Below are positions 5,150-61,765 of a DNA stretch of 64,000 nucleotides, one piece after another. Made by a program: the position numbers and the translations under genes. Source of the stretch: Thalassobaculaceae bacterium. GTDB lineage: Bacteria; Pseudomonadota; Alphaproteobacteria; Thalassobaculales; Thalassobaculaceae. The notes below the pieces were generated by a model. It worked only from the letters and a program-made list of their open reading frames with translations, ran no database searches and was not told the origin of the DNA. The first letter of the stretch is position 1. Each line of letters starts with the position of its first letter. The stretch is taken from contig JARGOG010000002.1 of NCBI GenBank assembly GCA_029212785.1, positions 12,121 to 76,120 on the forward strand, in the 5' to 3' direction.

Positions 5150-5207
5150 TCATCAGCTTTCGTTGCCGTGATCCCGGAAAGCTTGCGAAGTCCTTAACCA
5201 TAGTTCA

Positions 5208-5224
5208 AATAGATATGGCGTATT
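5208..5224. promoter_or_regulatory. Candidate LysR-type operator
   Basis: The intergenic AATA-N9-TATT inverted repeat contains the T-N11-A pattern expected of LysR-family sites. It lies between the divergent permease and LysR genes, 11 bp before the LysR start. The motif is short, so the call rests mainly on position. Confidence 0.3.
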
Positions 5225-5234
5225 CTGAATATCG

Positions 5235-6212
5235 ATGAAATCTATGATCGATTCCGACAAGCGATATCAGCCGGACCGGATCGCCCGCGAGCTTGACTGG
5301 AACCTGCTGCGCACCTTCGTGGTGTTGGCGGAAAGCCGGTCGGTCACGGAGGCGGCCCAGCGGCTCAGCCTCAAGCAACCCTCGGTCTCCACCGCCTTGA
5401 AGAAGCTGGAAGACCGGCTCGGCCGCCGGTTGATCGACCGGTCGCCGGGGCGTTATGCCCTGACCGATGCGGGGGAATTGCTGTATCAGGCGGCGCTGGA
5501 GATCAATGGCTCGGTCCTGCGGCTCTCCACCCTGATGCGCGAAGTGACCGACGAGATCCGCGGTCATGTCACGATCTCCGTTGCGAGCCACGTGGTCTGT
5601 CCGCTGTTCGACCGGGTGCTGGCCGAGTTCCATCGGGCCTATCCGGAGGTCACCCTGTCGATGGACGTGCAATCGAGCGCCGACGCCGTCGCCGAGGTGA
5701 TGGCGAAACGCGCCTCCTTCGCTATCTGCCTCGTCAGGGAGCCGAATCCACAGCTCGAATACGAGAGGCTCTACCGCGAGTTCTTCGGGCTTTTCTGCGG
5801 GCCGTATCACAGCCTGTTCGGCCGCTCCGACCTGTCCCTGGCGGATCTGGCCGGGCACAACTCCGTCAGCTTCGAGACCGACCGGCTGCACGACGCCCTG
5901 AAGCCGGTCACCCTGATGCGAGCCCAGACCGGGCTCGGCCAGCGGATCACCGGAATGTCCAGCAACCTGGAGGAGGTTACGCGGATGATCTACACCGGCT
6001 TTGGCATCGGCCCCCTCCCGGTGCATGTCGCCGCCCGCGACGTGGCCGACGGAAGGCTGTGGCAGGTGCCGCCCTACGATCCGCTGCCGGCGATCGACGT
6101 GTACCTCGTCTGGAATAAGAAGACGGCGAAGAACCGGGCGGAGGAAATGCTGATCGCCGCCCTGCAGGACGCGATCGCCACCACCCCCATTGAGGACCGC
6201 ACCTATCGGTAG
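5235..6212 (+). CDS. LysR-family transcriptional regulator
   Basis: This 325-residue regulator has an N-terminal winged helix-turn-helix (about residues 17-77, with SVTEAAQRLSLKQPSVSTAL as the core) and a C-terminal effector-binding domain of two periplasmic-binding-like lobes. It is transcribed away from the ABC/DauA-like operon, the usual layout for a LysR protein that controls its neighbour in response to the transported substrate or a breakdown product. The start ATG at 5235 has a second in-frame ATG three codons later. Confidence 0.95.
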   Translation: MKSMIDSDKRYQPDRIARELDWNLLRTFVVLAESRSVTEAAQRLSLKQPSVSTALKKLEDRLGRRLIDRSPGRYALTDAGELLYQAALEINGSVLRLSTLMREVTDEIRGHVTISVASHVVCPLFDRVLAEFHRAYPEVTLSMDVQSSADAVAEVMAKRASFAICLVREPNPQLEYERLYREFFGLFCGPYHSLFGRSDLSLADLAGHNSVSFETDRLHDALKPVTLMRAQTGLGQRITGMSSNLEEVTRMIYTGFGIGPLPVHVAARDVADGRLWQVPPYDPLPAIDVYLVWNKKTAKNRAEEMLIAALQDAIATTPIEDRTYR

Positions 6213-6452
6213 GGTGGGCTACCGATCACCGTGCGGCCACGGCCACGGTAGCAATAGCCCCCCTCGCAGGTGATGTGCTCCTCGTCGGTCAGGCTGGCGG
6301 CATTGAACGCCTTCGGGCCGATCGACTGGCGGGATCCCGGCCCCACCCATCCCAACCGGTTCAATGGGGTGTTTGGATCGTCACATTGAAATACGGAACG
6401 AGAAATCGATGGCGAAGCAGGCGGGGCGCCGCTCTAAGGCAGCGTCGATCCG

Positions 6453-7913
6453 CTACCTGGCTGGCATCGCGATCCGACGTGCCAGGATCAGACCAGCGAT
6501 TCCGGTGATCAGTGCAGAGAGGTCGACGGCCGCGATAGGGGCGAGTGACGCGGGCTGAGGAAGGGACGCGGCGGTCAGGTAGAGGGTCTGAAACGGAAAT
6601 CCGATCAGCAGCACGCACGCGGCGGAGCTGAGGTCCCGACCGGCCCGAACACCGCGCAGAAAGCTCCAGAACATGGCCGCGGCCCAGGCGACGAGGAAGA
6701 CCGCCATGGCGGAAGGGTAGGCGGTCGGCGGCGCCGAAGGCATCAGCCGGGCGACAAAGAATGTGACCGCCGCGGCTACCGCCAGCCCCGCGATCGTACC
6801 GGTCATCAGCCGGGTGAAAATGGCGGCATTCGCCGCCCCTGACAGGCGGCTGCGCCAGATCCGAAGGCCCGAGATGGCCAGCACGCACATCGAGATCCCC
6901 AGAGCCGCATAGAGCAGCTTGACCGCCACGCCGCCGAAACTGCCGTAGTGCAGAGGCGTGACCATGGCATAGAGCCGTCGACCCACACCCTCCCGGCTCC
7001 AGTCCACCATCTCCGTCACCTCGCCGCTGGCGCCGCTCAGGGATACGCTGGGGTAATAGACCAACCGGCCCGAGAGGTTGCCCATGGCCACCAGGCGGGC
7101 CGAGCTTTGACCCCAATCCGCGACGTCCACGACCTCGGGCACCATGCCCGGCATCCTGCGCAGGGCTTCTGCCATCAGGCGCGATGCCGGCACCATGTCC
7201 GCCGTCGCCTCGCTGCTGGGGTGCAGCATGCCCATGGCGGCCATCGCCGCGGCGCCATCGCCGCGATAGGCGGTCAACGCGGCGAGCAGGACGACGATTC
7301 CGGCGAAGCCGAGGATTGTGCCGGTCAGGGCCATGACCACGTGAAAAGGTGCGGCCCATAACCCGATCAGCTTGTGCATGTCGGTCCAGAAAAGCCGGAT
7401 GCTGCGGTCGGGACGGAAGCTGAACATCTCCTGCAGCATCTTGCGGTGGAGCAGCAGGCCGGAGATCGCGGATGCCAGAAGTGCGATGCCGAGCAGCCCG
7501 ACGATGTAGCGGCCGATCGACTGTGGCAGCAGCAGATCCGTATGCAGCCGGGTCAGCATTTCCGCCGCGGTCTCGCCGCGTGCCGGCAGGGGCGCGAGGG
7601 TGGCCGGATCCAGCCGCTGGGCCGGTGCGCTCTCCCGGCCGCCCGGGATCACGGTGACCCAGGGCCGGTAGGGGTTGGGAAGCAACAGCAGAAAGCTCCG
7701 GGTTCCTCCCGCGGCGGTGCGGTCCACCAGGGAGTCCAGGCTACCGGAGGTGAGCGATGGCGGGGCCGATAGATCCGCGCGCAACCACGGGTCGAGCTCC
7801 TCCGCGAACAGGGCGATCACGCCGGAAAAGCTGACCACGTAGAGCAGCAGTCCCAGCGTCAGCCCGATCCAGGAATGCAGATCGTAGAGACGTCGCAGGG
7901 CTTCACGGTGCAT
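6453..7913 (-). CDS. PepSY-associated TM protein, putative ferric-siderophore reductase
   Basis: This 486-residue inner-membrane protein is of the PepSY_TM (PiuB/FsrB-like) class, thought to reduce ferric siderophores or move electrons in iron uptake. Helices include residues 13-35, a pair near 145-165 and 190-225, and several at the C terminus. Conserved histidines occur in LYDLHSWIG, RLHTDLLLP, DMHKLIG and TPLHYGSFG, consistent with haem or metal binding. The start MHREALRR overlaps the preceding membrane-protein gene by 11 bp, indicating coupling. Reduction of iron is inferred from family and context. Confidence 0.88.
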   Translation of the reverse strand: MHREALRRLYDLHSWIGLTLGLLLYVVSFSGVIALFAEELDPWLRADLSAPPSLTSGSLDSLVDRTAAGGTRSFLLLLPNPYRPWVTVIPGGRESAPAQRLDPATLAPLPARGETAAEMLTRLHTDLLLPQSIGRYIVGLLGIALLASAISGLLLHRKMLQEMFSFRPDRSIRLFWTDMHKLIGLWAAPFHVVMALTGTILGFAGIVVLLAALTAYRGDGAAAMAAMGMLHPSSEATADMVPASRLMAEALRRMPGMVPEVVDVADWGQSSARLVAMGNLSGRLVYYPSVSLSGASGEVTEMVDWSREGVGRRLYAMVTPLHYGSFGGVAVKLLYAALGISMCVLAISGLRIWRSRLSGAANAAIFTRLMTGTIAGLAVAAAVTFFVARLMPSAPPTAYPSAMAVFLVAWAAAMFWSFLRGVRAGRDLSSAACVLLIGFPFQTLYLTAASLPQPASLAPIAAVDLSALITGIAGLILARRIAMPAR

Positions 7914-8529: not shown

Positions 8530-10905
8530 CTAGAACTTCAGCGACGCAGTGACACCGACGACCCGGCCGGCGCCGAGGGTGGCGGCGACGCTCTGGCCGG
8601 ACGTGTCCTTGGACTCGTAGACGAAATACTCTTCGTCGAAGAGGTTCTCCGCGAACACGGTCAACCGCAATCCGCCCGTCTGGTATCCCATCTGGGCGTT
8701 GGCTACCCAGTAGCTGTCGACATACTCGTGCGGCGCGAAGTCGAGGCGGCTCAGATACTCCGACACGTACTTGGCGTCGGCGCCGAGGAAGAATCCGCTC
8801 TTATGCTCGTAGAATCCACCGATCGCCAGGTTCCATTCCGGGGCCTCGGGAAACGGCATGCCCGACAGGTCGCCGAGGCTGACATCCTCGAACTCCTCGA
8901 ACTCGGTATCGACATAGCCGATCGACGCGAAGGTCGAGAAGCCGGGGGTGAAGAGATAGGTGCCCTCCAGCTCGAAGCCCTTGGTGGTCGAGCTGGCCGC
9001 GTTGGTCACCCGGGAGGAGTTGAAGTCGGCGGGGTCCTCCTGAACCTCGACCTGCTGATCGCTCCAGTCCATGAAGAAGACATTGGCGCTGGTGCGAAGG
9101 CGGCCGTCGAGGAATGTGCCCTTATACGAAGCTTCATAGGTCCAGGCCTTCTCGGCATCGAAGGTATAGGCCGCGCCGGTCGAACTCTGGACGCCGGCCC
9201 CCCCGCTGCGGAAGCCCTGCTGCACGGTGAAGCCCAGGGTATGGTCCGGGGTCAGATCTTTGATCAGCCCAAATTTCGGCAGGAAAACGGTCTCGTCGAA
9301 CGAGGTGGATTGATCGGTGGTCGTCGTCCCGTTGCGCGAGAAGAAGTTGTCGTTGGTTTCATCCGTGTAGTCGACCCGGCCGCCGGCGAGCACCTTCCAG
9401 GTCGGCACGAACTCGTAGGTTGCCTCGCCGAACAGCGCGGCGTTGAACGTTTCGGAACTGCCCTCGCTGACATCGCTGCGGCCGAAATAGTCCGGTCGCT
9501 GGTACCCGACATCGGATTCCTCTTTTGCCAGATAGGCACCGAGCACCCCGGCCCATCGGCCCGCCGCGTAATTCGCGCGGAACTCCTGGGTAGCCACGTA
9601 TTGTTCCTGCGTGCCGCGGGTGATGTTGGTCTCCCCGGCCGTACCCTCGTTCACCGACGGGCGGTTCAGGTCGGTGGCGGAATAGGTGGTCAGCGACGTG
9701 AAGGTCAGCATCGAGTTCACGTCGTGCGTCAGTTCGAAGGAGAGGTTGTGGGTCTCCGCGGTACGCACTTCAGAGAAGACCGGCAGGTTGAAGTCACCGC
9801 GTTTGTCGCCGTAGTCGAAACCCAGGCCGGGGCCGGCCACGTCTCGGATGTTGGGCGAGTCATGGGAGAACGAATAGGTCAGCAGCCCCGAGGTGTCCGG
9901 CATGGACTTCGGCTGCACTAGCAGTTTGCCGCGAAGCTGGTAGTACTCGTCCTCTGCGAAGTCGTCGTATCGGTCGAAGCTCTCGTAATCCGGATAGTTG
10001 ATGTCGCTCTCGCTGGTCGCGTACTCACCGGAGATGCGCAGAGCGACCTGATCGTCGAGCACCGGCGTGTTGGCCATGAAGGCTCCACCGACGGTGCTGT
10101 CGGTGCCGACCGTGCTCTGTACCTTGGCCTCGCGTTCGAAGATCGGATCCTTGGTCTTCACATAAATCGCGCCGGCGAGGGCCGCCCGGCCGCTGAGGGT
10201 CGACTGCGGTCCGCGATAGACCTCAATCTGCTGCACGTCCCACAGCCCGCGGGCGCCGCGCCGGGCGCCCTGTACGGTTTGTTGCGCGCCGTCGACATAG
10301 ACGCTGGCGAGCGGTGCGCCGCCAGGGGTCAGGCCCTCGGAATTGACGCCGCGGATGACGAATCCAGCGTCGTTCCAGTCGCTGTCCATGACGTTGCCCA
10401 TCGTGCGGAACGCCTCGCGGAAGCTGCCGAGCTGGCGCTTCTCGATCTCCTGCTCGGTGACGATCCCCACACTTGCCAGGGTGTCGTCCAGCGAGGTCGT
10501 TGTCTTGGCGCCATAGACCTGGAGTGGGGCAAGCCGCAGCACGCCGGTATCCTCCGGCGCCTTGGCGATGGTCAGCGCACCGGATGCCGTATAGGCCGAT
10601 TGCAGGCCGCTTCCCGCGAGCAGTCGGTCAAGCGCTTCCTCGGCGGTGAAGCTGCCGCTGAGGGCCGGTGCCTGACGGCCGGCGACGGAGGGTTCGGTGT
10701 AGACCACCGGCGTGCCGGTCTGCGCCGAAAGGGCGGCGATCGCGTCGACCAGAGATTGGGCGGGCAGCGCGATCGCGTGGCGCTGTGGGGCTTGGGCGAG
10801 TTGGTCGGCTCGGGCCTGTCCCGTGCCGGTGGCCGGCATGCCCAACAGCAAAGCCGCCGTTGCCGCGCCGGTCAGCAGCGCCCGCCTCATCACATTGATC
10901 CCCAT
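8530..10905 (-). CDS. TonB-dependent siderophore receptor with N-terminal signalling domain
   Basis: This 791-residue outer-membrane receptor has a signal peptide (hydrophobic core about residues 10-24). A secretin/TonB short N-terminal (STN) signalling domain follows at roughly 45-110 (LVDAIAALSAQTGTPVVY). The plug domain covers about 125-240, and the 22-strand barrel ends in the terminal Phe of ASLKF. The STN domain means it should signal to FecR, which is encoded immediately upstream. It heads a three-gene minus-strand unit with the fused DUF3325-DUF3649 and PepSY genes. Ferric-siderophore uptake is well supported; the siderophore is unknown. Confidence 0.95.
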   Translation of the reverse strand: MGINVMRRALLTGAATAALLLGMPATGTGQARADQLAQAPQRHAIALPAQSLVDAIAALSAQTGTPVVYTEPSVAGRQAPALSGSFTAEEALDRLLAGSGLQSAYTASGALTIAKAPEDTGVLRLAPLQVYGAKTTTSLDDTLASVGIVTEQEIEKRQLGSFREAFRTMGNVMDSDWNDAGFVIRGVNSEGLTPGGAPLASVYVDGAQQTVQGARRGARGLWDVQQIEVYRGPQSTLSGRAALAGAIYVKTKDPIFEREAKVQSTVGTDSTVGGAFMANTPVLDDQVALRISGEYATSESDINYPDYESFDRYDDFAEDEYYQLRGKLLVQPKSMPDTSGLLTYSFSHDSPNIRDVAGPGLGFDYGDKRGDFNLPVFSEVRTAETHNLSFELTHDVNSMLTFTSLTTYSATDLNRPSVNEGTAGETNITRGTQEQYVATQEFRANYAAGRWAGVLGAYLAKEESDVGYQRPDYFGRSDVSEGSSETFNAALFGEATYEFVPTWKVLAGGRVDYTDETNDNFFSRNGTTTTDQSTSFDETVFLPKFGLIKDLTPDHTLGFTVQQGFRSGGAGVQSSTGAAYTFDAEKAWTYEASYKGTFLDGRLRTSANVFFMDWSDQQVEVQEDPADFNSSRVTNAASSTTKGFELEGTYLFTPGFSTFASIGYVDTEFEEFEDVSLGDLSGMPFPEAPEWNLAIGGFYEHKSGFFLGADAKYVSEYLSRLDFAPHEYVDSYWVANAQMGYQTGGLRLTVFAENLFDEEYFVYESKDTSGQSVAATLGAGRVVGVTASLKF

Positions 10906-50931: not shown

Positions 50932-51152
50932 CTCATATCCTCCGCCTTCCCGAAGGCTTGGATCGTAGAATATGAAGTTTGCTATGTGAATCAACTTTTC
51001 AACTTTAAGAGAGTTTTCGGGTCGTGGTCGGAATCTCGATTTGCCTCGCTCCAAGCGTACCCTGACCGCGAGTGCCTTGTTGTGACGGATCAGCCGAGGC
51101 GTTTCGGCTATCATTGTCCGATTCGATCCGTGTCCAGCGCTGCGGAAACGCC

Positions 51153-52196
51153 ATGACGTCCATCCTCATCGTCACCGACGCCTGGCGGCCTCAGGTCAAT
51201 GGTGTCGTCCGGTCGCTCGAAAGCACCGCCAGGGAACTGGAGGGGATGGGGGTTCGGGTCGAGATCCTGTCGCCGCAGGAATTCGTGACCGCCCCTTGCC
51301 CGACCTACCCGGACATCCGGCTGTCGCTGACATATCGGGGGGCGGTGCAACGGCGCATCGCGGCATTCGACTGCGAGCATATTCATATCGCCACCGAAGG
51401 TCCGCTCGGACTGCTGGCCGGATCGGCGGCGCGCCGGATGGGGCGGCCGTACACGACCAGCTATCACACGCGCTTTCCGGAGTATCTGGGCGCGCGCTGG
51501 CCGTTTCCGATCGACTGGACCTACGCCTGGCTGCGCCGGTTCCACAATTTCGGGGTCGGCTGCATGGTGGCGACCGAGTCGCTCAGGCGGGACCTTGAGT
51601 TTCGCGGCTTCCGGAACCTGATGCCGTGGTCGCGCGGCGTGGATGCCGAGCTGTTTCGGCCCTTGGACGGGTCGGTCCTTCCGGACACCCTGCCGCGTCC
51701 GATCTTCATGAATGTCGGACGGATCTCGGTCGAGAAGAACATCGAGGCCTTCCTCGACCTGGACCTTCCCGGATCCAAGGTGGTGGTCGGCGACGGTCCT
51801 CGATTGCCGACCTTCCGGCGGAAGTATCCGGACGTGCTGTTCACCGGCGAAAAGTCCGGTGAGGAGTTGGCGGGTCTATGCGCCAGTGCCGATGTGTTCG
51901 TTTTTCCGTCGCGCACCGACACGTTCGGCCTCGTCCTGCTGGAGGCACTGGCCTGTGGCGTGCCGGTCGCCGCATTCCCCGTCATGGGGCCGCGCGACAT
52001 CGTCGCGGACAGCGGAGCCGGTATTCTCAGCGACGATCTGCGTCAGGCCGCCCTGGACGCGCTCGACATTCCAGGAGCGCGTTGCCGCGAACGGGCGCTG
52101 GAGTTCAGCTGGGCGTCCTGCGCGCGGCAGTTTCTCGACAACGCACAGACCGCTCAGGCGGCGTTCGCGACTCCGCGACTACCGCTCATTGCCTGA
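51153..52196 (+). CDS. GT4-family glycosyltransferase (GT-B fold)
   Basis: This 347-residue cytosolic or peripheral membrane glycosyltransferase resembles MgtA/PimB-type GDP-mannose or UDP-sugar transferases. The N-terminal Rossmann domain has TDAWRPQVNGVVRSLE and the acceptor-loop region TEGPLGLLAG. The C-terminal domain has VGRISVEKNIEAF and the EX7E donor motif within TDTFGLVLLEALACGVPVAAF. The ATG at 51153 is the family start. It converges on a cyclopropane-synthase-like gene; both may modify membrane lipids, for example as glycolipid synthesis. Confidence 0.9.
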   Translation: MTSILIVTDAWRPQVNGVVRSLESTARELEGMGVRVEILSPQEFVTAPCPTYPDIRLSLTYRGAVQRRIAAFDCEHIHIATEGPLGLLAGSAARRMGRPYTTSYHTRFPEYLGARWPFPIDWTYAWLRRFHNFGVGCMVATESLRRDLEFRGFRNLMPWSRGVDAELFRPLDGSVLPDTLPRPIFMNVGRISVEKNIEAFLDLDLPGSKVVVGDGPRLPTFRRKYPDVLFTGEKSGEELAGLCASADVFVFPSRTDTFGLVLLEALACGVPVAAFPVMGPRDIVADSGAGILSDDLRQAALDALDIPGARCRERALEFSWASCARQFLDNAQTAQAAFATPRLPLIA

Positions 52197-52227: not shown

Positions 52228-53418
52228 CTAGGAACGGGCATAGGCGATCTGGCAGATGTCGATGAATCCGCCACGGAAACCGCCCTCGCAATAGGCCAGG
52301 TAGTAGTCCCACATCCGGTGGAACCGCGCGTCAAATCCCTGGCGCTCAATTTCCGGCCAGTTGTCGAGAAACCGGGCGCGCCAATATGCGAGCGTGCGGG
52401 CGTAGTCGGCTCCGAACGTCTCCTCCGTATCGACTTTCAGGCCGTGCGCCGCGCCGAGCTGGTGCAGGTGTTGTCGGGTCGGCAGCATGCCGCCCGGAAA
52501 GATGTAGCGCTGGATGAAGTCCGGATTGGCCTTGTAGTCTTCGAATCCCTCCTCGACGATCGTGATCACCTGCAAGGCGGCGCGGCCGTCGGCGGTCAGC
52601 AGGTTTCGAAGCTGGGCAAAGAACCCGGTCCAGTAGGCTTCGCCGACCGCTTCGAACATCTCGATCGAGGCGATCGCGTCGAACGGCCCCGCGATGTCGC
52701 GATAGTCCCGGATCTCGAAGCGCACCCGGTCCGAAACGCCGGCGCGGCGCGCCCGTTCGACGGCATAGGCGTGCTGCTCCCGTGACAGGGTGATGCCGAC
52801 GGCCTCGACGCCGTATTGCTCGGCCGCGTAGATGGCAAATCCACCCCACCCGCAACCGATATCCAACAGCCGCTGACCGGGGCGCAGGTCGAGCTTCTCG
52901 GCGATGCGGCGATGCTTCGCCCTCTGGGCCGTCTCCAGATCCCGTTCACCGTCTTCGAACCGGGCACTCGAGTAGGTCATGGAAGGGTCGAGCCACTGGG
53001 CGTAGAAATCATTGCCCATGTCGTAGTGATAGGCGGCGTTGCGCAGACTGCCGCGGCGGCTGTTGCTGTTGAACCAATGCAGCATGCGGCGGGTCAGGAT
53101 ACGGAACAGGTTGTTCGGATTGCCCTGGTTGAACGCGTGCTTGTTGCGCTCGAAGAGTTCGATGACGGCGACGATATCGGGGCTGTCCACCGATCCGTCC
53201 ATATAGGCTTCGGCGAAGGCCAGATGTCCGCCCAGGATAAACCGCTTGGGCACGCCTCGGGCGTTGAGTCGCAGGACGGCGTCGGGGCCGGGAGCCGAAC
53301 CATCGAAGGCGAACTCCCGTGCGTCGGGCAGGATGACGGTCAGGCGGCCGACACGGAGTCCACCCAGCATGGCGAAGGCGGCGCGGGTCCACCTGTCCAG
53401 CCGCTGGTCCAGGCTCAT
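52228..53418 (-). CDS. Cyclopropane-fatty-acyl-phospholipid synthase-like methyltransferase
   Basis: This 396-residue SAM-dependent enzyme acts on unsaturated acyl chains of phospholipids. It has an N-terminal lipid-binding domain, then HYDMGNDFYAQWLDPSMTYSS, the SAM-binding motif LLDIGCGWGGFAIYAAE, and IEMFEAVGEAYW. A Ser replaces the Cys that follows Tyr-Ser in the E. coli enzyme. Translation is coupled to the radical SAM gene by an ATGA overlap, so the two may act on the same lipid. The product could be a cyclopropane or another methylated lipid. Confidence 0.9.
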   Translation of the reverse strand: MSLDQRLDRWTRAAFAMLGGLRVGRLTVILPDAREFAFDGSAPGPDAVLRLNARGVPKRFILGGHLAFAEAYMDGSVDSPDIVAVIELFERNKHAFNQGNPNNLFRILTRRMLHWFNSNSRRGSLRNAAYHYDMGNDFYAQWLDPSMTYSSARFEDGERDLETAQRAKHRRIAEKLDLRPGQRLLDIGCGWGGFAIYAAEQYGVEAVGITLSREQHAYAVERARRAGVSDRVRFEIRDYRDIAGPFDAIASIEMFEAVGEAYWTGFFAQLRNLLTADGRAALQVITIVEEGFEDYKANPDFIQRYIFPGGMLPTRQHLHQLGAAHGLKVDTEETFGADYARTLAYWRARFLDNWPEIERQGFDARFHRMWDYYLAYCEGGFRGGFIDICQIAYARS

Positions 53419-54944
53419 TGTATCGTCAACCCTGTGTCCGCCGTGCCGGCGCGGATCTCCGCGGTCAGCTTGCCGTCGCCGTCGGTGACGTAGAGCGGCT
53501 CGAAATCGCGGGCGAATTTCTCGGCGAGGGGATGCATCGGACGGTAGCTGACGCTCAGCGGATCGCTCATGGCGCAGTATGTGCGGGCCGGCTCGCGCCA
53601 GGTCTGGCGGATCTGGCGCAGGTTCCCGACCCTTACGGTGCCGCCGAAGCGGATGAGGGGGCCGAGCAGGCTGATCAGTGACTGCGAGAGGTCGAATGAC
53701 GATTTGCGCGACCAGACATGGCTGACCGCATGGCGGACCAGGGCCGATTTGCGGCCGCGGAACCGCAGCAGATCGGCTACGAAAGGCACGACGCGCTCCA
53801 GCGGTTCCTTCGGCCATTCGACCAGTTTCTGGCCGTCCAGGTCGCTCAGCCGCAGGTTCGGCATAAGGCGACCGGCTCTCGCGGCCTCATCGAAATATGG
53901 GGTGCCCAGGATCGGGATGGTCAGCGACAGCAAGGCCGGCAGGGGGGTGTCCGTGCTGGCGAGCAGGGTTTCGATCTGGCCGTCGATCTCGGCGACCGTC
54001 TGTTGGGTGAAGTCCAGCATCATGCCGTAGTCGAACAGTACGCCATGGTCGGCACAGAGCCGCGCCAAGGTGCGCGGGTCGGAGGACAGGCTCTGGCGTT
54101 TGTTGAAGCTCTTCAGGACCGCCGGGTCGAGGGACTCGACGCCGGAGAACAGCGCCTTGCATCCGTTCGCCGCGACGCGAGCCAGGTTGTCCGGGTTCTT
54201 GAAGAAATCGCCGGTGACCAGAGCGCCCCATCCCCGGAAATCGCCACGGCGCCAATGCGCGCCGAGCAGATCGGTCCTCCGCTCGAAGTCCGAGCGGTTG
54301 CTGCCGTAGAAATTATTGTCCAGCACCATGAGCATCTGCATCCGGCCCTGGGCATCGAGTTGTCGGGATATCTCGCGGGAGCTGTAGGGCTGATACGGCC
54401 GGTTTTCGCCGGTCAGGGAGCAGAACGCGCAGCTGAAGTTGCAGTTCCGGGTCGTCTCGACATAGCCGAGACCATAGGACCATCCGGCGAGGTCGAACCG
54501 GGGGGCGGGGTCGTCGGCGCGATGCCCCGGCCCGAGCGCCGCGTCGACGATGTCGTCCAACGCCTCGATGTCGCCCTGGCAGACGTAATCGAAGACGCTG
54601 TCGCACAGATGGGGCAGCGCGCGGGCAATGGGTCCGCCGATGGCGACCGCGACATCGGGTCGGGCATTTCGGAAATAGGCCGAAAGCTGGCGCGCCCGGT
54701 CGAACGACATGGTGAGGCCGGTGAGCACGACGAGATCCGGCCAGTCGAAGAGACGCGGGTTCAGCAGGGCGCCGTGATGAACCTCGTCATGGACGCGGAC
54801 CTCCGTGCGTTCCGGGCAGAAACGGCCGGCGAGGTAATAGGGCGCCATGGCGCGCGGAATGAACAGGCGCGTCGGCGCCGCCGAGCGCCAGGGGCAGACA
54901 TAGGCGTTTACGATCAGAACGCGCGGTTTCCTGTTTCCTCTCAT
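53415..54944 (-). CDS. B12-binding-domain-like radical SAM protein
   Basis: This 509-residue protein has an N-terminal Rossmann-like domain (residues 5-130) as in B12-binding radical SAM enzymes, but no clear cobalamin DxHxxG motif. The radical SAM core contains the 4Fe-4S cluster motif CNFSCAFC (Cys168, Cys172, Cys175). Later motifs include GVESLDPAVLKSFNK. The C-terminal 120 residues are of unknown function. It sits first in an operon with the cyclopropane-synthase-like gene, suggesting radical chemistry on a lipid. Substrate is unknown. Confidence 0.88.
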   Translation of the reverse strand: MRGNRKPRVLIVNAYVCPWRSAAPTRLFIPRAMAPYYLAGRFCPERTEVRVHDEVHHGALLNPRLFDWPDLVVLTGLTMSFDRARQLSAYFRNARPDVAVAIGGPIARALPHLCDSVFDYVCQGDIEALDDIVDAALGPGHRADDPAPRFDLAGWSYGLGYVETTRNCNFSCAFCSLTGENRPYQPYSSREISRQLDAQGRMQMLMVLDNNFYGSNRSDFERRTDLLGAHWRRGDFRGWGALVTGDFFKNPDNLARVAANGCKALFSGVESLDPAVLKSFNKRQSLSSDPRTLARLCADHGVLFDYGMMLDFTQQTVAEIDGQIETLLASTDTPLPALLSLTIPILGTPYFDEAARAGRLMPNLRLSDLDGQKLVEWPKEPLERVVPFVADLLRFRGRKSALVRHAVSHVWSRKSSFDLSQSLISLLGPLIRFGGTVRVGNLRQIRQTWREPARTYCAMSDPLSVSYRPMHPLAEKFARDFEPLYVTDGDGKLTAEIRAGTADTGLTIQ

Positions 54945-54978: not shown

Positions 54979-56136
54979 TCACACCTGATCGAGTCCGACG
55001 AATATCCCGAGGATGAAGATGGCGTACACGCCGATGATGGCGTGGGAAATGATCGGTGGAACGATGCTGCGCGACCGCATGAACAGCCAGCCCCATAGCA
55101 GGGACGGCAGGATCACGGCGGCCGATACGATCGGATTGAGATGGGCATGCAGCACCGCGAACAGCAGTGTCGCTACCCCGTTCGCGATCCATCCGGCCGG
55201 CCCGACAACACCGGTGAGGAAACTTTCCAGCGGCGCCTGAATGGCGCAGCGGGTGGCGAATTGCTGGAACAGCACCGAGATCAGGTAGACCGACACGCCG
55301 ATCGTATACAGGCCGACGCCGTCCACCTTCGTGCCGTCATCCAGGACGTAGAAGCTGAAGAGTGGCGTCGTCGGACCCGCCGGATCCGAGCCGAGATGAA
55401 TCAAAAGAAATTTTCCGGCCGTCATCGTCGCGCAGAACCCGATCGACCAGATGACCGCCTCGACCACGTGGCGGCGCTTCGGTCTGAGATCGAGGCCGAC
55501 ACTCTCCGAACTGGGTGAGATCCAGCGATTGATCAGGAAGGCGATGATCACCAGCGTCAGAAGCGCCATCACCGGCCCGAAATCGAAGTATCGGTTCCGC
55601 GCCAGCTCCTGGATCGGCTCCAACAGCAGGGTGAAAACGCTGAAGATCGTCAGGATGGCGACAATGAACCGCCCGGTCGCCGCGCGCTCGCGCTCGCGCG
55701 CCGCGCTCTTTGCCAGAAACTCGACCCGCTCGCTCTCGTCGGAGAGCATGACCAGGACGCCGATCCGCTCGTTGGAGCCTCTGCGGTGCAGCAGGACGGT
55801 TCGGACGCTGAGGTGGAGAACCGTCCCCCCATGGTCCAGGCTGATATTGGCGATATGCTCCTCGTCGGGGTGCCGGACCGCTTCCAACACGCAGTCGGTG
55901 AAATCATCCAGACCCTCGATCGGCAGGAATACCTCCGCGACGGTCTTGCCGACGACTTCCGGGGCCTGCAGCCCGAAGATCGCTTCGGCACCTGGATTGA
56001 AGGAGGTCAGCCGGCCCTGCGGATCGATGGTGACGATCCCGTCCTGCGACGAGGCGACGATATCGTCGGTCATCGCGACCGGCAGGGATTGGAATGGAAT
56101 CTGGTCTGGCATGCGTGCAGTCACTGTCTGAGTCAT
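54979..56136 (-). CDS. PAS domain fused to CPBP/CAAX-type membrane protease domain, catalytic Glu pair lost
   Basis: This 385-residue protein has an N-terminal PAS domain at about residues 20-135 (DGIVTIDPQGRLTSFNPGAEAIFG) and a short coiled linker. Roughly eight transmembrane helices follow, forming a CPBP (Abi/CAAX protease) domain. Motif 2 is intact as FAVLH (326-330), and a later His lies in ISHAIIGVY. Motif 1, normally EExxxR, reads QQFATR (291-296), so both catalytic Glu are Gln. It may be a non-proteolytic membrane sensor or scaffold responding to a PAS-bound ligand or redox signal. It lies 34 bp upstream of the radical SAM gene. Confidence 0.85.
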   Translation of the reverse strand: MTQTVTARMPDQIPFQSLPVAMTDDIVASSQDGIVTIDPQGRLTSFNPGAEAIFGLQAPEVVGKTVAEVFLPIEGLDDFTDCVLEAVRHPDEEHIANISLDHGGTVLHLSVRTVLLHRRGSNERIGVLVMLSDESERVEFLAKSAARERERAATGRFIVAILTIFSVFTLLLEPIQELARNRYFDFGPVMALLTLVIIAFLINRWISPSSESVGLDLRPKRRHVVEAVIWSIGFCATMTAGKFLLIHLGSDPAGPTTPLFSFYVLDDGTKVDGVGLYTIGVSVYLISVLFQQFATRCAIQAPLESFLTGVVGPAGWIANGVATLLFAVLHAHLNPIVSAAVILPSLLWGWLFMRSRSIVPPIISHAIIGVYAIFILGIFVGLDQV

Positions 56137-56188: not shown

Positions 56189-57244
56189 TCACACCACGGG
56201 CGGGGTGTGTCCGTCCAGGCCGTTCTGCTGCGCGGTCATCGCTTCCAGATTGGCGACCGAGCGGTCGACCTCGTTGCGGATATGGGCGTATTGGCCGACC
56301 GGTGGGTAGCGGGCCGGCCGGTCCGGCCCGACGAATTGCGGCAGCGGTGCCACGACCTGATCGCCGTCGACGGCGTAAAACAGGATCAGCGAATAGCGCT
56401 GCCACGGCGTGTTGACGACCCGGTGACCGGTGGCCGGCAGAGTGCCGTTGGTGAAGCGCTCCATCATGTCGCCGAGGATGATGGTGAACCGGCCGCCGGC
56501 GGCCGGCGCCTGGTGCCAGTTGCCCTCGACATCGGTCAGCTCCAGCCCGGGAGCGGTCTGGTACATGATGGTGAAGCACTCGAAATCGGTATGGGCGGCG
56601 ATCCCGACATTGATGTCGTCGGCCGGCGCGTCGTTCGCCGGATAGTGCAGCAGCCGCAGCGTCTTCGGCGCCCGGTCCCCGCTCATACGGTTGAAGAAGC
56701 CGCGCTCCTCGCCGACCAACTCCGAGAACACCTCGAACAGTGCCCGGCCCAGCCGGTTGGCCGCCGCGTTGTAGGTTTCGACCGCGTCCCGGAACCCCGG
56801 CAGGTCGGGCCAAGGGATCGGCCAGATGCCGACTTCCTGCGCCGCCTCCGCCGATGGGAACAGGGCCACGTCGGGGCCGGCATCGAAGGACTCCATGTAG
56901 GCGATCGTGTTCTCCTGGTAGGACGGCTCCTCGAAAATCGGAGCCCAGCCGGTGGTGCCCGGCGCCAGATCCTGATGCACCGCCTGCTTGATCGGATCGT
57001 CGTCCGGCAGCGCGAAGAGCCGGTCCATCTGGGTCAGGGTGTCCTGGATCACACGGTCGTCGATGCAGGTGTTGTGCACCAGGAAGAAGCCGCTACGCTC
57101 GCAGGCCCGTCGGGCTTCCGCCACCACCCGTGCCCGACCGTCGGGATCGTCGCGGAAGAGCGGGGCGAGATCGATATCGATGATCTTGTCCGGATCAAGT
57201 TCCGTTGCCGCCGCAGTCGCGTTCAGGGATTGGGTATCCGGCAT
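56189..57244 (-). CDS. Fe(II)/2-oxoglutarate-dependent oxygenase, isopenicillin N synthase-like
   Basis: This 351-residue soluble non-haem iron oxygenase has an N-terminal DIOX_N domain (DIDLAPLFRDDPDGRARVV) and a C-terminal jelly roll. The iron ligands appear in AAHTDFECFTIMYQ (His, Asp) and ATGHRVVNTPWQRYS (distal His, with the R-x-S that binds the co-substrate). It is divergent from the mgsABC/gmaS-like operon with a shared 229-bp promoter region carrying an inverted repeat, hinting at linked control. Substrate unknown. Confidence 0.9.
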   Translation of the reverse strand: MPDTQSLNATAAATELDPDKIIDIDLAPLFRDDPDGRARVVAEARRACERSGFFLVHNTCIDDRVIQDTLTQMDRLFALPDDDPIKQAVHQDLAPGTTGWAPIFEEPSYQENTIAYMESFDAGPDVALFPSAEAAQEVGIWPIPWPDLPGFRDAVETYNAAANRLGRALFEVFSELVGEERGFFNRMSGDRAPKTLRLLHYPANDAPADDINVGIAAHTDFECFTIMYQTAPGLELTDVEGNWHQAPAAGGRFTIILGDMMERFTNGTLPATGHRVVNTPWQRYSLILFYAVDGDQVVAPLPQFVGPDRPARYPPVGQYAHIRNEVDRSVANLEAMTAQQNGLDGHTPPVV

Positions 57245-57317: not shown

Positions 57318-57473
57318 AAACTGCAACTCGACCGATTGTCTGGGCTTTTCCGCACCGCGTCATGGCGTCAAGATGATGGCGACCGGTTCAGTCGGCGGCG
57401 TTCTCGCCAGACCGTCGGGGCAAGGCCGGGCGCGCCGGTGGGGCGCCATCGGGACGGGAACGTGGAGCAGTGT

Positions 57474-58370
57474 ATGTGTGGAATCGTCGGGCTCTATCTG
57501 AAATCCGAAGCCTTGTCGGCCGACCTCGGGCGTCTGACCGGTCTGATGCTGCATGAGATGCGCGGCCGGGGACCGGACTCCGCCGGGTTCGCGGTCTATG
57601 GCGCGCCGGAGGCCGGCTCCAAGCTGGTGCTGCTGGCCGAAGCGACGGTGGTCGACTGGCCGTCGATCGCCACCCGGCTGGAGGTGGCGCAGGGTGCCGC
57701 GGCTGAGATTACGCCGATCGCCAATCACGCCGTGCTGCGCACCGAGGGTGACGGTCAGGCGGCGCGCGACTGGCTGATCGCCAATGTGCCGGAGGTGACC
57801 GTGCTCTCGGTCGGCCGGTCGATCGAACTGTTCAAGGGGGTCGGCGATCCGGATGCGGTGGCCGATCGTTTCGGGCTGGCCGGGCGCTCCGGCACCCATG
57901 CCATCGCCCATACCCGCATGGCGACGGAATCGGCGGTGACCACCGCCGGTTCGCACCCGTTCTCCACCGGGGCCGATACCTGCCTCGTGCATAACGGCTC
58001 GCTGTCGAACCACAACGGGTTGCGCCGCCGGCTCGAAGCGTCGGGCGAGCGGTTCCAGACCGAGAATGATTCCGAGGTGGCCGCCGGCTACCTGGCGCAT
58101 CGCATGCGCGGCGGCGACACGCTGGCCGACGCGGTCGGCGCGGCCCTGCGGGACCTGGACGGGTTCTTCACCTTCGCCATCGGCACCGCCGAGGGTTTCG
58201 CCGTCGTGCGCGACCCGATCGCCTGCAAGCCGGCGGTGATGGCCGAGACCGACGACTGGGTCGCCATGTCGTCGGAGTTCCGCGCCATCGCCAAGCTGCC
58301 CGGGGTCGGCCATGCCCGGATCTGGGAGCCGAGACCGGCGGAGATCTATTCCTGGAGCCGCGCGGCGTGA
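57474..58370 (+). CDS. Class II glutamine amidotransferase subunit (GlxB / MgsA type)
   Basis: This 298-residue Ntn-type amidotransferase begins MCGIVG, so removal of Met exposes the catalytic Cys2. RGRGPDSAGFAVYG, AHTRMATESAVTTAGSHPF and LVHNGSLSNH are the expected glutamine-binding elements. In methylotrophic bacteria this is subunit A of N-methylglutamate synthase (MgsABC), a split glutamate synthase that joins methylamine-derived groups to glutamate; in rhizobia it is named GlxB. The stop overlaps the next start (GTGA). Confidence 0.9.
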   Translation: MCGIVGLYLKSEALSADLGRLTGLMLHEMRGRGPDSAGFAVYGAPEAGSKLVLLAEATVVDWPSIATRLEVAQGAAAEITPIANHAVLRTEGDGQAARDWLIANVPEVTVLSVGRSIELFKGVGDPDAVADRFGLAGRSGTHAIAHTRMATESAVTTAGSHPFSTGADTCLVHNGSLSNHNGLRRRLEASGERFQTENDSEVAAGYLAHRMRGGDTLADAVGAALRDLDGFFTFAIGTAEGFAVVRDPIACKPAVMAETDDWVAMSSEFRAIAKLPGVGHARIWEPRPAEIYSWSRAA

Positions 58371-59062
58371 GCGTCGATACCCTGAACCATAGCGTCCTCG
58401 ACCTGGGCGCAGAGCCGGTGCGCGCGGTCAACCGGACCCTGCAGGCGGCGTCCGGGGGCGCCTTCACTATCCGCAATCCGAACGGGGCGCATGCGCTGGC
58501 CTGCGGTCTGGACGCCCCGGTCGACATCACCATCGCCGGGCATGTGGGCTACTACTGCGCCGGCATGAACAAGCACGCCTCGGTCACGGTCGAGGGCAAT
58601 GCCGGCACCGGTCTTGCCGAGAACATCATGTCCGGCACCGTGCGGGTGACCGGCGATGCCAGCCAGTCGGCGGGCGCCACGGGCCACGGCGGATTGGTGG
58701 TGATCGAGGGTGACGCCTCGGCGCGCTGCGGGATCTCGATGAAGGGCGTCGACATCGTGGTCGGCGGTTCGGTCGGGCACATGTCGGCCTTCATGGCGCA
58801 GTCGGGAACCCTGGCCGTGCTCGGCGATGCCGGCGAGGCGCTCGGCGATTCGATCTACGAGGCGCGGCTCTATGTGCGCGGATCGGTGGCCGGCCTCGGC
58901 GCCGATTGCGTGGAGAAGGGGATGCGCGCCGAGCATGTGGCCGAGTTGCAGGCGCTGCTGACACGGGCCGGTTACGGCGATGTCGATGCCGCGACCTTCC
59001 GGCGCTACGGTTCGGCCCGCCAGCTCTATCATTTCAAGGTCGACAATGTCGGCGCGTATTGA
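58367..59062 (+). CDS. GXGXG-repeat subunit of split glutamate synthase (GlxC / MgsB type)
   Basis: This 231-residue protein is built from the right-handed beta-helix of the GltB C-terminal domain. Repeated glycine-rich turns are visible (NGAHALACGLDAPVDITIAG, GNAGTGLAENIMSG, ATGHGGLVVIEGDASARCG). It is the structural linker subunit of the GlxBCD/MgsABC complex. It starts at GTG coupled to the amidotransferase gene and is followed nine bases later by the FMN subunit gene. Confidence 0.9.
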   Translation: MSVDTLNHSVLDLGAEPVRAVNRTLQAASGGAFTIRNPNGAHALACGLDAPVDITIAGHVGYYCAGMNKHASVTVEGNAGTGLAENIMSGTVRVTGDASQSAGATGHGGLVVIEGDASARCGISMKGVDIVVGGSVGHMSAFMAQSGTLAVLGDAGEALGDSIYEARLYVRGSVAGLGADCVEKGMRAEHVAELQALLTRAGYGDVDAATFRRYGSARQLYHFKVDNVGAY

Positions 59063-59071
59063 GGCCCAGCA

Positions 59072-60406
59072 ATGACCGGTTCCCCGAAGATCCCGCGAAC
59101 GGCACCCCGCAAGTCCGCCACCTTCGACGACATCACCCTGTCGGAAATCCGCCGGGCGGCGGCGACCGGCATCTACGACATTCGCGGGGCGGGCGCGAAG
59201 CGGGCGCTGCCGCATTTCGACGACCTGCTGTTTCTCGGCGCCTCGATCTCGCGCTATCCGCTGGAGGGGTATCGCGAGACCTGCCGCACCGACGTGGTGC
59301 TCGGCGACCGCTTCGCCTCCAAGCCGATCCACCTGAAGATCCCGATCACCATCGCCGGCATGAGCTTCGGCTCGCTCTCGGCCCAGGCCAAGGAGGCGCT
59401 CGGGCGCGGTGCCTCGGCCATGGGAACCTCGACCACCACCGGCGATGGCGGCATGACCGAGGAGGAACGCGGGCATTCCGAGCTGCTGGTCTATCAGTAC
59501 CTGCCGAGCCGCTACGGCATGAACCCGGACGACCTGCGCCGGGCCGACGCCATCGAGGTGGTGGTGGGCCAGGGGGCAAAGCCCGGTGGCGGCGGCATGC
59601 TGCTCGGCCAGAAGATCAGCGCGCGGGTCGCCGGGATGCGCGACCTGCCGGAAGGCATCGACCAGCGCTCGGCCTGCCGTCACCCGGACTGGACCGGCCC
59701 CGACGATCTGGAGATCAAGATCCAGGAGCTGCGGGAGATCACCAATTGGGAAAAGCCGATCTACGTCAAGGTCGGCGCTTCCCGGCCGTATTACGACGTG
59801 GCGCTCGCGGTGAAGTCCGGCGCCGACGTGGTCGTGCTCGACGGCATGCAGGGCGGCACAGCGGCGACCCAGGACGTGTTTATCGAGCATGTCGGCATCC
59901 CGATCCTGTCGGCGATCCGCCCGGCCGTGGCGGCCCTCCAGGAACTCGACATGCACCGCAAGGTCCAGCTCGTCGTTTCCGGTGGCGTGCGCAACGGCGC
60001 CGACGTCGCCAAGTGCCTGGCACTCGGCGCGGATGCGGTCTCGATCGGTACTGCCGCCCTGGTGGCGCTCGGCGACAACGATCCGCGCTGGGAGGCCGAC
60101 TACAATGCGCTCGGCACCACGGCCGGCGCCTATGACGACTGGCACGAGGGCAACGACCCGGCCGGCATCACCACCCAGAATCCCGAGCTGGCGGCTCGGC
60201 TCGACCCGGTCGCGGCCGGCCAACGCCTGGCCAACTACCTCGCCGTCATGACCCTGGAATGCCAGACCATCGCGCGGGCCAACGGCAAGTCGGACGTGCG
60301 CAACCTGGAGCCCGAGGATCTCGTGGCGCTGACCATCGAGGCGGCGGCGATGGCGCGGGTTCCGCTCGCGGGCACCGACTGGATACCCGGTCCGGGCGGG
60401 CGCTGA
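59072..60406 (+). CDS. FMN-binding glutamate synthase-like subunit (GlxD / MgsC type)
   Basis: This 444-residue (beta/alpha)8 protein corresponds to the FMN and 2-oxoglutarate/Fe-S synthase domain of GltB. Signature stretches are ITIAGMSFGSLSAQAKEAL, GDGGMTEEERGHS, GQGAKPGGGGMLLGQKIS and VVLDGMQGGTAATQ. It would be the catalytic subunit of the split enzyme: N-methylglutamate synthase in the methylamine pathway, or a glutamate synthase-like enzyme of unknown substrate. It lies 51 bp before the glutamine-synthetase-like gene. Confidence 0.92.
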   Translation: MTGSPKIPRTAPRKSATFDDITLSEIRRAAATGIYDIRGAGAKRALPHFDDLLFLGASISRYPLEGYRETCRTDVVLGDRFASKPIHLKIPITIAGMSFGSLSAQAKEALGRGASAMGTSTTTGDGGMTEEERGHSELLVYQYLPSRYGMNPDDLRRADAIEVVVGQGAKPGGGGMLLGQKISARVAGMRDLPEGIDQRSACRHPDWTGPDDLEIKIQELREITNWEKPIYVKVGASRPYYDVALAVKSGADVVVLDGMQGGTAATQDVFIEHVGIPILSAIRPAVAALQELDMHRKVQLVVSGGVRNGADVAKCLALGADAVSIGTAALVALGDNDPRWEADYNALGTTAGAYDDWHEGNDPAGITTQNPELAARLDPVAAGQRLANYLAVMTLECQTIARANGKSDVRNLEPEDLVALTIEAAAMARVPLAGTDWIPGPGGR

Positions 60407-60457
60407 TCCTGTCGGCGGAAACGGAAACCACTACCAACAGCGAAGAGGTATGACGGC

Positions 60458-61765
60458 ATGGCGATCGATCTGGCGAATGAGGCGAAGAAGCGCGGTATCG
60501 AGTATTTCCTGATCTCATTCGTCGATCTGTTCGGCGTCATGCGGGCCAAACTGGTGCCGGCCTCGGCGATCGGGCCGATGGCGAAAGAGGGGGCGGGCTT
60601 CGCCGGCTTCGCCGCCTGGCTCGACCTGAATCCGGCCCACCCGGACATGTTCGCCGTACCCGATCCGGACAGCCTGATCCAACTGCCGTGGAAGCCGAGT
60701 GTCGGCTGGCTCGCCGCCGATCTCCACATGGACGGCAAGGAGCTAGAGCAAGCCCCGCGCGCCGCCCTCAAGCGCGCCGTCGCGACCGCCGCCAAGCAGG
60801 GTTACCGGCTCAAGCACGGGGTCGAGTGCGAGTACTTCCTGATCACCCCGGACGGCCGGTCGCTGGCCGACGCCCAGGATACCCAGGGCAAGCCCTGCTA
60901 CGACATCGAGGCGCTGATGCGCCGCTACGACGTCATCACCGAGATCTGCGACGCGATGCAGGCACTGGGCTGGGGCCCGTATCAGAACGACCACGAGGAT
61001 GCCAACGGCCAGTTCGAGATGAACTGGGATTACGCCGACGCCCTGATCACCGCCGACCGCCACGCGTTCTTCAAATACATGGTCAAGTCGGTCGCCGAGA
61101 AGCACGGGTTGCGCGCGACCTTCATGCCGAAGCCCTTCGCCAACCTCACCGGCAACGGCTGCCACGCCCATGTCAGCCTGTGGGACAAGACCGGCAGGAA
61201 GAACGTGTTCGACGACCCCAAGGGCGAGCTTGGGATCTCGGCGCTCGGCTACAACTTCCTTGGCGGCCTGATGGGGCATGCCCCGGCGCTTTGCGCCATC
61301 GCCAACCCGACCGTCAATTCCTATAAGCGGCTGAACGCACCGGTCACCGCCTCGGGCGCGACCTGGGCGCCGAACACCATCACCTATGGCGGCAACAACC
61401 GCACCCACATGGTCCGCATCCCGGATGCCGGACGCTTCGAGGTGCGTCTCGCCGACGGGGCGACCAACCCGTACCTGCTGCCCGCCGCGATCCTGGCCGC
61501 CGGCCTCGACGGCATCGCGACCAAGGCGGAGCCGGGCAAGCGGATCGATATCGACATGTATGCCGAGGGTCACAAGGTCCGGGGCGTGAAGAAGCTGCCG
61601 TTGAACCTGCTGGACGCGCTCCGCGCCCTGGAGAAGGACCGTACCCTGTGCAAGGCAATCGGCGAGGAGACGGTCTCCGCCCTGGTCAAACTGCGGATGC
61701 AGGACTGGAACGCCTATAGCCGCGAACTCACCGATTGGGAGCGGGCGAACACGCTCGACTGCTGA
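60458..61765 (+). CDS. Glutamine synthetase family ligase (GmaS / GlnT type)
   Basis: This 435-residue ATP-dependent amide ligase has the beta-grasp N-terminal part, then the catalytic core with HGVECEYFL, NGQFEMNWDY, GNGCHAHVSLW and APVTASGATWAPN. The length and the tight link to glxBCD/mgsABC genes fit gamma-glutamylmethylamide synthetase (GmaS), which makes gamma-glutamylmethylamide from methylamine and glutamate. They also fit rhizobial GlnT (type III glutamine synthetase). The families are close and sequence inspection alone cannot decide. Confidence 0.9.
   Translation: MAIDLANEAKKRGIEYFLISFVDLFGVMRAKLVPASAIGPMAKEGAGFAGFAAWLDLNPAHPDMFAVPDPDSLIQLPWKPSVGWLAADLHMDGKELEQAPRAALKRAVATAAKQGYRLKHGVECEYFLITPDGRSLADAQDTQGKPCYDIEALMRRYDVITEICDAMQALGWGPYQNDHEDANGQFEMNWDYADALITADRHAFFKYMVKSVAEKHGLRATFMPKPFANLTGNGCHAHVSLWDKTGRKNVFDDPKGELGISALGYNFLGGLMGHAPALCAIANPTVNSYKRLNAPVTASGATWAPNTITYGGNNRTHMVRIPDAGRFEVRLADGATNPYLLPAAILAAGLDGIATKAEPGKRIDIDMYAEGHKVRGVKKLPLNLLDALRALEKDRTLCKAIGEETVSALVKLRMQDWNAYSRELTDWERANTLDC

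Follow-up and report, generated by a model that had tools for sequence, protein, structure and literature searches.

A PAS sensor fused to a CPBP membrane domain with an altered active site and encoded next to a radical SAM enzyme

What does a membrane protease fold do when the residues of its active site have been exchanged and a sensor domain has been placed in front of it? This question is raised by a gene of a Thalassobaculaceae bacterium (Alphaproteobacteria; GenBank assembly GCA_029212785.1), found in a stretch of 64,000 nucleotides (contig JARGOG010000002.1, positions 12,121 to 76,120), here called the window. Prokaryotic CPBP proteins are described as widespread and largely unexplored (PMC11980579). 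The original prediction, made from the sequence alone, read the gene as a PAS sensor fused to a CPBP protease domain with Gln-Gln in place of the catalytic Glu pair, and hence as a pseudo-protease turned membrane signalling protein. In outline this account is right; it overlooked the adjacent radical SAM gene, the related forms with a cyclic-nucleotide-binding domain and the QE state of the site.

Domain layout and fold of the PAS-CPBP

The gene is read from the minus strand (Table 1); the plus-strand frame at 54979-56136 contains two stops. According to a Pfam scan, the window protein matches PAS with 48 bits (cut-off 22.6) and PF02517 with 38.2 bits (cut-off 22.4), which places it in the CPBP/Rce1-like superfamily. 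Both domains being above cut-off, the proposed fusion is borne out. PF02517 is matched by all 13 PAS-CPBPs (the window protein and its homologues at loci L010-L021) and PAS by 12 of them; in L018, which has no PAS match, the contig starts at residue 79. The best scores of the PAS domain, in sequence profiles and in the structure match, are to input modules of sensor kinases. Cys82 is invariant in 13/13 PAS-CPBPs, as is D133-x-S135-E136-R137, which closes the PAS domain and runs into a helix toward the first membrane span. Hydropathy yields eight hydrophobic windows from residue 152 onward, and since these partly overlap, seven or eight membrane spans are expected.

Table 1. Positions of the PAS-CPBP gene, its domains and its neighbours in the window
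Feature	Position	Strand	Remarks
PAS-CPBP gene, sensor and Rce1-like membrane domain	54979..56136	-	385 aa, ATG at 56136
PAS domain, residues 24-133	55738..56067	-	Pfam
Rce1-like core PF02517, residues 279-368	55033..55302	-	Pfam and model
QQFATR at the place of EExxxR, residues 291-296	55249..55266	-	sequence, profile alignment
Radical SAM protein, B12-binding-like N-terminal fold	53415..54944	-	34 bases downstream of PAS-CPBP
GT4 glycosyltransferase	51072..52196	+	next to the pair in the window, in L010 and L021 and in five cNMP-type loci
Cyclopropane-fatty-acid-synthase (CFA) family gene	52228..53490	-	start codon uncertain, longest ORF to 53817
2OG-Fe(II) oxygenase	56189-57244	-	52 bases upstream of PAS-CPBP, same strand

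In the structure model of the PAS-CPBP (pLDDT 71, pTM 0.49), the PAS part resembles the PAS domain of ThkA (Z 13.0), a single long helix spans residues 135-182, and residues 153-382 match MmRce1, the Rce1 of M. maripaludis (4CAD_F; Z 12.1, rmsd 3.6, 199 aligned residues, 13% identity). Because helical bundles reach such Z-scores by chance and the pLDDT is 71, this match has weight only together with the sequence match. Structure prediction, suggested as a check by the original prediction, has thus returned a Rce1-like membrane fold. A search of PDB sequences with the PAS-CPBP gave relatives of the PAS domain and a few weak matches, none of them a CPBP chain. The best NCBIfam CPBP matches would place the protein with MrtJ and the myxosortases; this membership is ruled out by the weak score (38.7 bits, cut-off 75) and by the QQ...G site described below. 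The MrtJ cut-off is exceeded by five genes (L091 and L093-L096), all of which read EE...N.

The altered active site and its conservation

Compared with the protease motifs EExxxR, FxxxH and HxxxN, the window protein reads QQFATR (291-296), FAVLH (326-330) and HAIIG (365-369), so that only FxxxH is intact. A profile alignment sets QQ in the EE columns, in agreement with the original prediction, which had also rightly seen that FAVLH and a later His (that of HAIIG) are retained. It had overlooked that this third motif is HxxxG in place of HxxxN. No proper EE motif is present elsewhere in the protein, whose sole EE pair (92-93) lies within the PAS domain. MmRce1, MrtX and MrtJ share the Rce1-like fold but are described with EExxxR and HxxxN, as opposed to QQ...G here. 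For MmRce1 and MrtX, the water is reported to be bridged by the first Glu together with a His, and the oxyanion hole to be formed by His and Asn of HxxxN (PMC11980579). DidK has Asp at the first position; its description assigns the water to E141 in one sentence and elsewhere finds the counterpart of E140 to be essential (PMC10811503). With both the water-activating Glu and the oxyanion Asn replaced, the window protein is unlikely to cleave peptides by the known mechanism.

The altered site is not peculiar to this strain. Ten of the 13 PAS-CPBPs read QQ (window, L010-L016, L018, L021), three read QE (L017, L019, L020) and none reads EE. A further 13 proteins carry a cyclic-nucleotide-binding domain instead of PAS (cNMP-CPBPs; L055-L066, L104), with this domain and PF02517 both above the Pfam cut-off in each. 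All 13 read QE, in a set that was gathered by PF02517, profile and BLAST searches partly seeded by earlier members and may therefore favour the same signature. Their membrane domains are 16-31% identical to that of the window protein (11/13 measured). Throughout these 26 sensor-CPBPs, the position of the first Glu is Gln, the Asn of HxxxN is Gly, and Arg and both His are kept; the second Glu is retained, as QE, in 16. With EE in 0/26, the window protein is no lone mutant among EE homologues. Gln and Gly in 26/26, together with the Rce1-like fold, make the assignment as a putative pseudo-protease with a sensor in front well supported by sequence. As the remainder of the pocket is strictly conserved, binding is favoured over decay.

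Compared with nine homologues, the window gene shows dN of 0.15-0.47 and dS of 0.69-1.86, i.e., purifying selection, and the radical SAM partner of the QQ genes is under purifying selection as well. The Gln codons of QQ vary synonymously between CAG and CAA among the same nine homologues. Hence, QQ is maintained at the protein level. A lone-strain mutation or a sequencing error is ruled out by the occurrence of QQ in 10/13 PAS-CPBPs with synonymous codon changes.

As a control, we compared 53 PF02517 loci, comprising 23/23 matches from relatives and 30/38, mostly the better-scoring ones, from a sample of the phylum. Forty of these read EE and 13 have Gln first. HxxxG accompanies Gln in 13/13 and EE in 0/40, where ten of the 13 Gln rows are sensor-CPBPs themselves and three are small solo proteins, and where the active-site profile was built from an alignment containing many of the rows that it later scored. 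At the Asn of HxxxN, the EE rows have N in 31 (plus L043 via a second fragment), D in six, S in one and an unresolved residue in one (L039).

The same QE...HxxxG site is found without any sensor in small solo CPBPs (L035, L036, L100 and L105, the last from the phylum search with profile A4), which may represent the stand-alone form of a QE/HxxxG class. The site is thus part of a broader class and did not arise with the sensor fusion. By eye, L100 adjoins a gene for an MscS-like channel.

In the tree calculated from 48 CPBP cores, one branch (96/98) has the 26 sensor-CPBPs all on the same side, and another (97/84) the 19 EE rows. Because the EE rows stay together, Gln and Gly may have a single origin, and we do not claim repeated co-evolution of the two. 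The 13 PAS forms constitute a single clade (100/100) inside the cNMP forms, grouping with L063, L065 and L066 (100/100). This nesting suggests an exchange of sensor domains, in the simplest case of PAS for cNMP. As QE occurs in all cNMP forms and in three PAS forms, and Gly in 26/26, loss of the first Glu would have come earliest, along with loss of the oxyanion Asn, and QQ later. QE is thus probably the wider and older state. One of the three cNMP forms that group with the PAS clade, L065 (5155-7832 of the locus), lies on a plasmid of Legionella lytica near a carotenoid biosynthesis gene.

Sensor-CPBPs are rare. At E 1e-12, profile A4 matched 6/398 genomes of the phylum, of which four hold a sensor-CPBP (G000, G006, G127, G460), one a solo QE protein (G392) and one a canonical EE protein (G406). 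These genome counts and those of the radical SAM search in the phylum are lower bounds, as up to six and three candidates per genome were scored, respectively.

The radical SAM gene and the wider neighbourhood

The gene for a radical SAM protein adjoins the PAS-CPBP gene in the window and in 11/12 homologue loci (L010-L021), in tandem in ten and divergently in L017. In 8/9 tandem loci measured, 6-34 bases separate the stop codon of the CPBP gene from the earliest start that the radical SAM gene could use; in L014 the distance is 274 or more. A search for the partner at E 1e-40 found it in 7/112 relatives and 3/398 phylum genomes, corresponding to eight distinct genomes. It lies beside a sensor-CPBP in all eight, of the PAS type in three (G000, G002, G007) and of the cNMP type, divergently, in five (G006, G010, G030, G050, G460). 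Loci L010 and L021 appear to be those of genomes G007 and G002, so that the locus and genome counts overlap. PAS-linked and cNMP-linked radical SAM proteins are 58-64% identical (3 x 5 rows); the membrane domains of the PAS and cNMP CPBPs beside them are 16-20% identical (6 x 3 rows) and belong to separate clades.

In a radical SAM tree of 16 rows, from which L010 (BAL199) was omitted because its frame is interrupted, the nine QQ-linked proteins group together (100/99) and the two QE-linked PAS forms stay outside, which fits a single step from QE to QQ. The L010 partner gene (9007-10688) is split between two frames that overlap, and one of its matches contains a stop, owing to a frameshift or a sequencing error.

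The pairing is not exclusive. Lamprobacter (L019) has a PAS-CPBP, whose gene comes after that of a Cys/Met PLP enzyme, and a search of its 5.7 Mb genome at E 1e-20 finds no such radical SAM protein. Likewise, 8/13 cNMP-CPBPs (L059-L066) lack a partner homologue in the fetched stretches, of which that of L064 stops 484 bases past the CPBP gene, leaving the downstream side outside the data. The membrane domain is thus not dedicated to this radical SAM enzyme alone.

What the partner catalyses cannot be read from its structure model, which is poor (pLDDT 60.5); PDB sequences gave no match to the family at E 0.1. PF04055 is matched by 11/11 partner proteins at E 0.01, with 29.6 bits against a cut-off of 29.5 for the window protein, and C168, C172 and C175 of its CxxxCxxC motif are invariant in 11 rows. 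The B12-binding domain PF02310 is likewise matched in 11/11 at E 0.01, with the window protein (24.6 bits) below the cut-off of 32.1, and we are unsure whether the partner binds cobalamin. In so far as a poor model can tell, the protein resembles AprD4, TsrM, OxsB and CysS (Z 14.8, 13.2, 12.6 and 12.6; rmsd 5.8-6.5) in having an N-terminal B12-binding-type fold and a radical SAM core.

Around the pair, gene content varies. The GT4 glycosyltransferase is 72-80% identical in L055-L057 and 62% in L058, the L104 copy being assigned by its place and Pfam. As the gene is common to PAS- and cNMP-type arrangements, one sensor-CPBP may have taken the place of another at a corresponding locus. Neither GT4 nor the CFA gene stands beside the pair in the Roseibium loci, and in L016, the one of these whose surroundings were scanned with Pfam, the pair lies near genes for a multicopper oxidase and a thymidylate synthase, as expected of a transferred two-gene unit. 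The CFA synthase is ruled out as a fixed partner, for no locus other than the window, L010 and L021 (T. litoreum) has it next to the pair. The 2OG-Fe(II) oxygenase gene is probably co-transcribed with the PAS-CPBP gene in the window; such an operon is not conserved as far as the stretches of L010-L021 (E 1e-8) and L055-L066 (E 1e-10) reach, as these gave no homologue. Further upstream (57360-61765, plus strand), Pfam matches GATase_6, GXGXG, a glutamate-synthase FMN domain and a glutamine-synthetase-like gene in succession, which we take to be an N-methylglutamate/glutamine-synthetase-like module.

Several cNMP-CPBP genes have lipid genes nearby. L060, L061 and L063 each have one for a fatty acid desaturase, L063 has a CDP-alcohol phosphatidyltransferase fusion in addition, and L059 has a relative of CFA synthase. 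In L064 (G127, 4669-7908), the cNMP-CPBP gene stands beside a TMEM164-family gene and those of an acyl carrier protein and a phosphopantetheinyl transferase, possibly an acyl-lipid or polyketide cluster that uses the same membrane domain. From these neighbours, a modest basis without a chance control, we guess at a role in membrane lipids. Other radical SAM genes lie about 1-6 kb from the cNMP-CPBP gene in L060, L061 and L062. A function in anti-phage defence was considered and rejected: PADLOC gave no match for the PAS-CPBP or the radical SAM protein, and the L055 cNMP-CPBP matches Pycsar effector profiles over its nucleotide-binding part only.

Possible roles of the sensor-CPBPs

Because cleavage is unlikely and the pocket is nevertheless strictly kept, we propose that the PAS-CPBP is a sensor-controlled pseudo-CPBP that no longer cuts peptides and works in the membrane as a partner to the radical SAM enzyme encoded next to it. 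We prefer this reading tentatively and judge that it falls slightly short of probable. A cytoplasmic PAS domain, or a cNMP-binding domain in the relatives, would act through a signalling helix on the Rce1-like membrane domain. In the latter, Arg and both His are kept, Gln replaces the water-activating Glu and Gly replaces the oxyanion Asn; most likely it leaves peptides uncut. It would most likely bind either a membrane-held substrate, for which we guess at a lipid or a molecule linked to one, or the radical SAM enzyme itself, and the sensor would gate the complex of the two proteins.

The original prediction knew of no description of such a pseudo-protease turned signalling protein; the idea itself has precedents in Abx1, SpdC, LnsB and APH-1. 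APH-1 is a eukaryotic protein with presenilin as its partner, and to our knowledge it has no sensor domain. This subunit of gamma-secretase is placed in the same superfamily, with poorly conserved catalytic residues (PMC7387801, PMC4602095), and resembles the role proposed here as a degenerate member that serves as a partner subunit. LnsB of S. aureus is a degenerate CPBP protein required together with LnsA for N-acylation of lipoproteins, and a non-catalytic role like that of APH-1 has been suggested for LnsB (PMC7387801). As described, it is like the PAS-CPBP in its CPBP fold, its lost catalytic motifs and its second protein. It differs in that the description mentions no sensor, in that LnsA is an NlpC/P60 and not a radical SAM enzyme, and in that its motifs diverge broadly, whereas the pocket of the PAS-CPBP is conserved in an altered form. 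SpdC is reported to lack key catalytic residues (PMC7387801) and to bind histidine kinases (PMC5854430), and Abx1 to regulate CovS even when its own Glu and His are replaced (PMC3578759). Like the protein proposed here, these CPBP/Abi proteins act through protein contacts; unlike it, they regulate histidine kinases, their accounts mention no fused PAS or cNMP domain, and Abx1 has EE and both His. A search of the open-licence literature for CPBP/CAAX fusions with PAS or cNMP domains, for such a pseudoprotease or for a radical SAM pairing found none, and an earlier mention is possible. What stands of the claimed novelty is therefore the sensor fusion with a Q...G site and its radical SAM pairing.

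The same data can be read in other ways. The QE/HxxxG class might still be enzymatic and, under the control of the sensor, catalyse another reaction or rely on a different base, namely the second Glu together with both His; the radical SAM enzyme would then make or modify the substrate, and QQ would represent a later form that is weaker or has lost activity. Invariance of Arg, both His, Gln and Gly in 26/26 sensor-CPBPs and in the four solo proteins resembles a working site, and the second Glu survives in 16/26. Yet both the residue that holds the water and the oxyanion Asn of MmRce1 and MrtX, as described (PMC11980579), are changed here, and purifying selection persists on the QQ genes and their partner, so that we regard continued catalysis as unlikely, though credible. 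Alternatively, the membrane domain might be an adaptor of the Abx1/SpdC type that binds a histidine kinase or another regulator, with PAS setting the signal and the radical SAM gene merely co-transferred or co-regulated. This would agree with the kinase-like affinities of the PAS domain and with reports that the Abx1-CovS interaction needs neither Glu nor His of Abx1 (PMC3578759) and that SpdC binds several kinases (PMC5854430). However, Pfam finds no kinase among the ten window proteins scanned round the gene (neighbours at the other loci were mostly read by eye), and the pocket is strictly conserved where Abx1 function does not need it. Moreover, adjacency to the radical SAM gene in 8/8 genomes with two CPBP clades is hard to credit to hitch-hiking. 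An adaptor role is rather improbable.

CPBP proteins and radical SAM enzymes are each known from peptide pathways, which invites a further reading as RiPP-like maturation, with the radical SAM enzyme modifying a small peptide that the CPBP domain binds or exports. The partner does weakly match the RiPP radical SAM protein ApyD (34.4 bits, cut-off 750). Against this, gaps of 34 bases in the window and 6-34 in 8/9 tandem loci leave no space for a precursor gene between the two genes, and Pfam finds no peptide-binding domain in the radical SAM protein; we consider this very improbable.

Returning to the sensor-gated partner of the radical SAM enzyme, its most specific version would be an intramembrane substrate chaperone. 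A frozen Rce1-type pocket would hold a lipid or lipid-linked substrate and present it to the B12-fold radical SAM enzyme upon a PAS or cNMP signal, such that one radical SAM enzyme is served by two distant sensor-pseudoproteases in different lineages. This version is speculative and, in our estimation, doubtful.

The sensor-fused pseudo-CPBPs belong to the known pseudo-CPBP proteins; we have not found the sensor fusion and the radical SAM partner described. The signature QE or QQ...H...HxxxG defines a class that splits cleanly from EE/HxxxN in the control set and contains the sensor-fused clade. Its repeated pairing with one radical SAM family points to a specific partner and provides a system of two genes for studying what use is made of a pseudo-protease, which is likewise in question for LnsB and SpdC. 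If the link to lipids is true, the pair would be a signal-controlled system for membrane modification.
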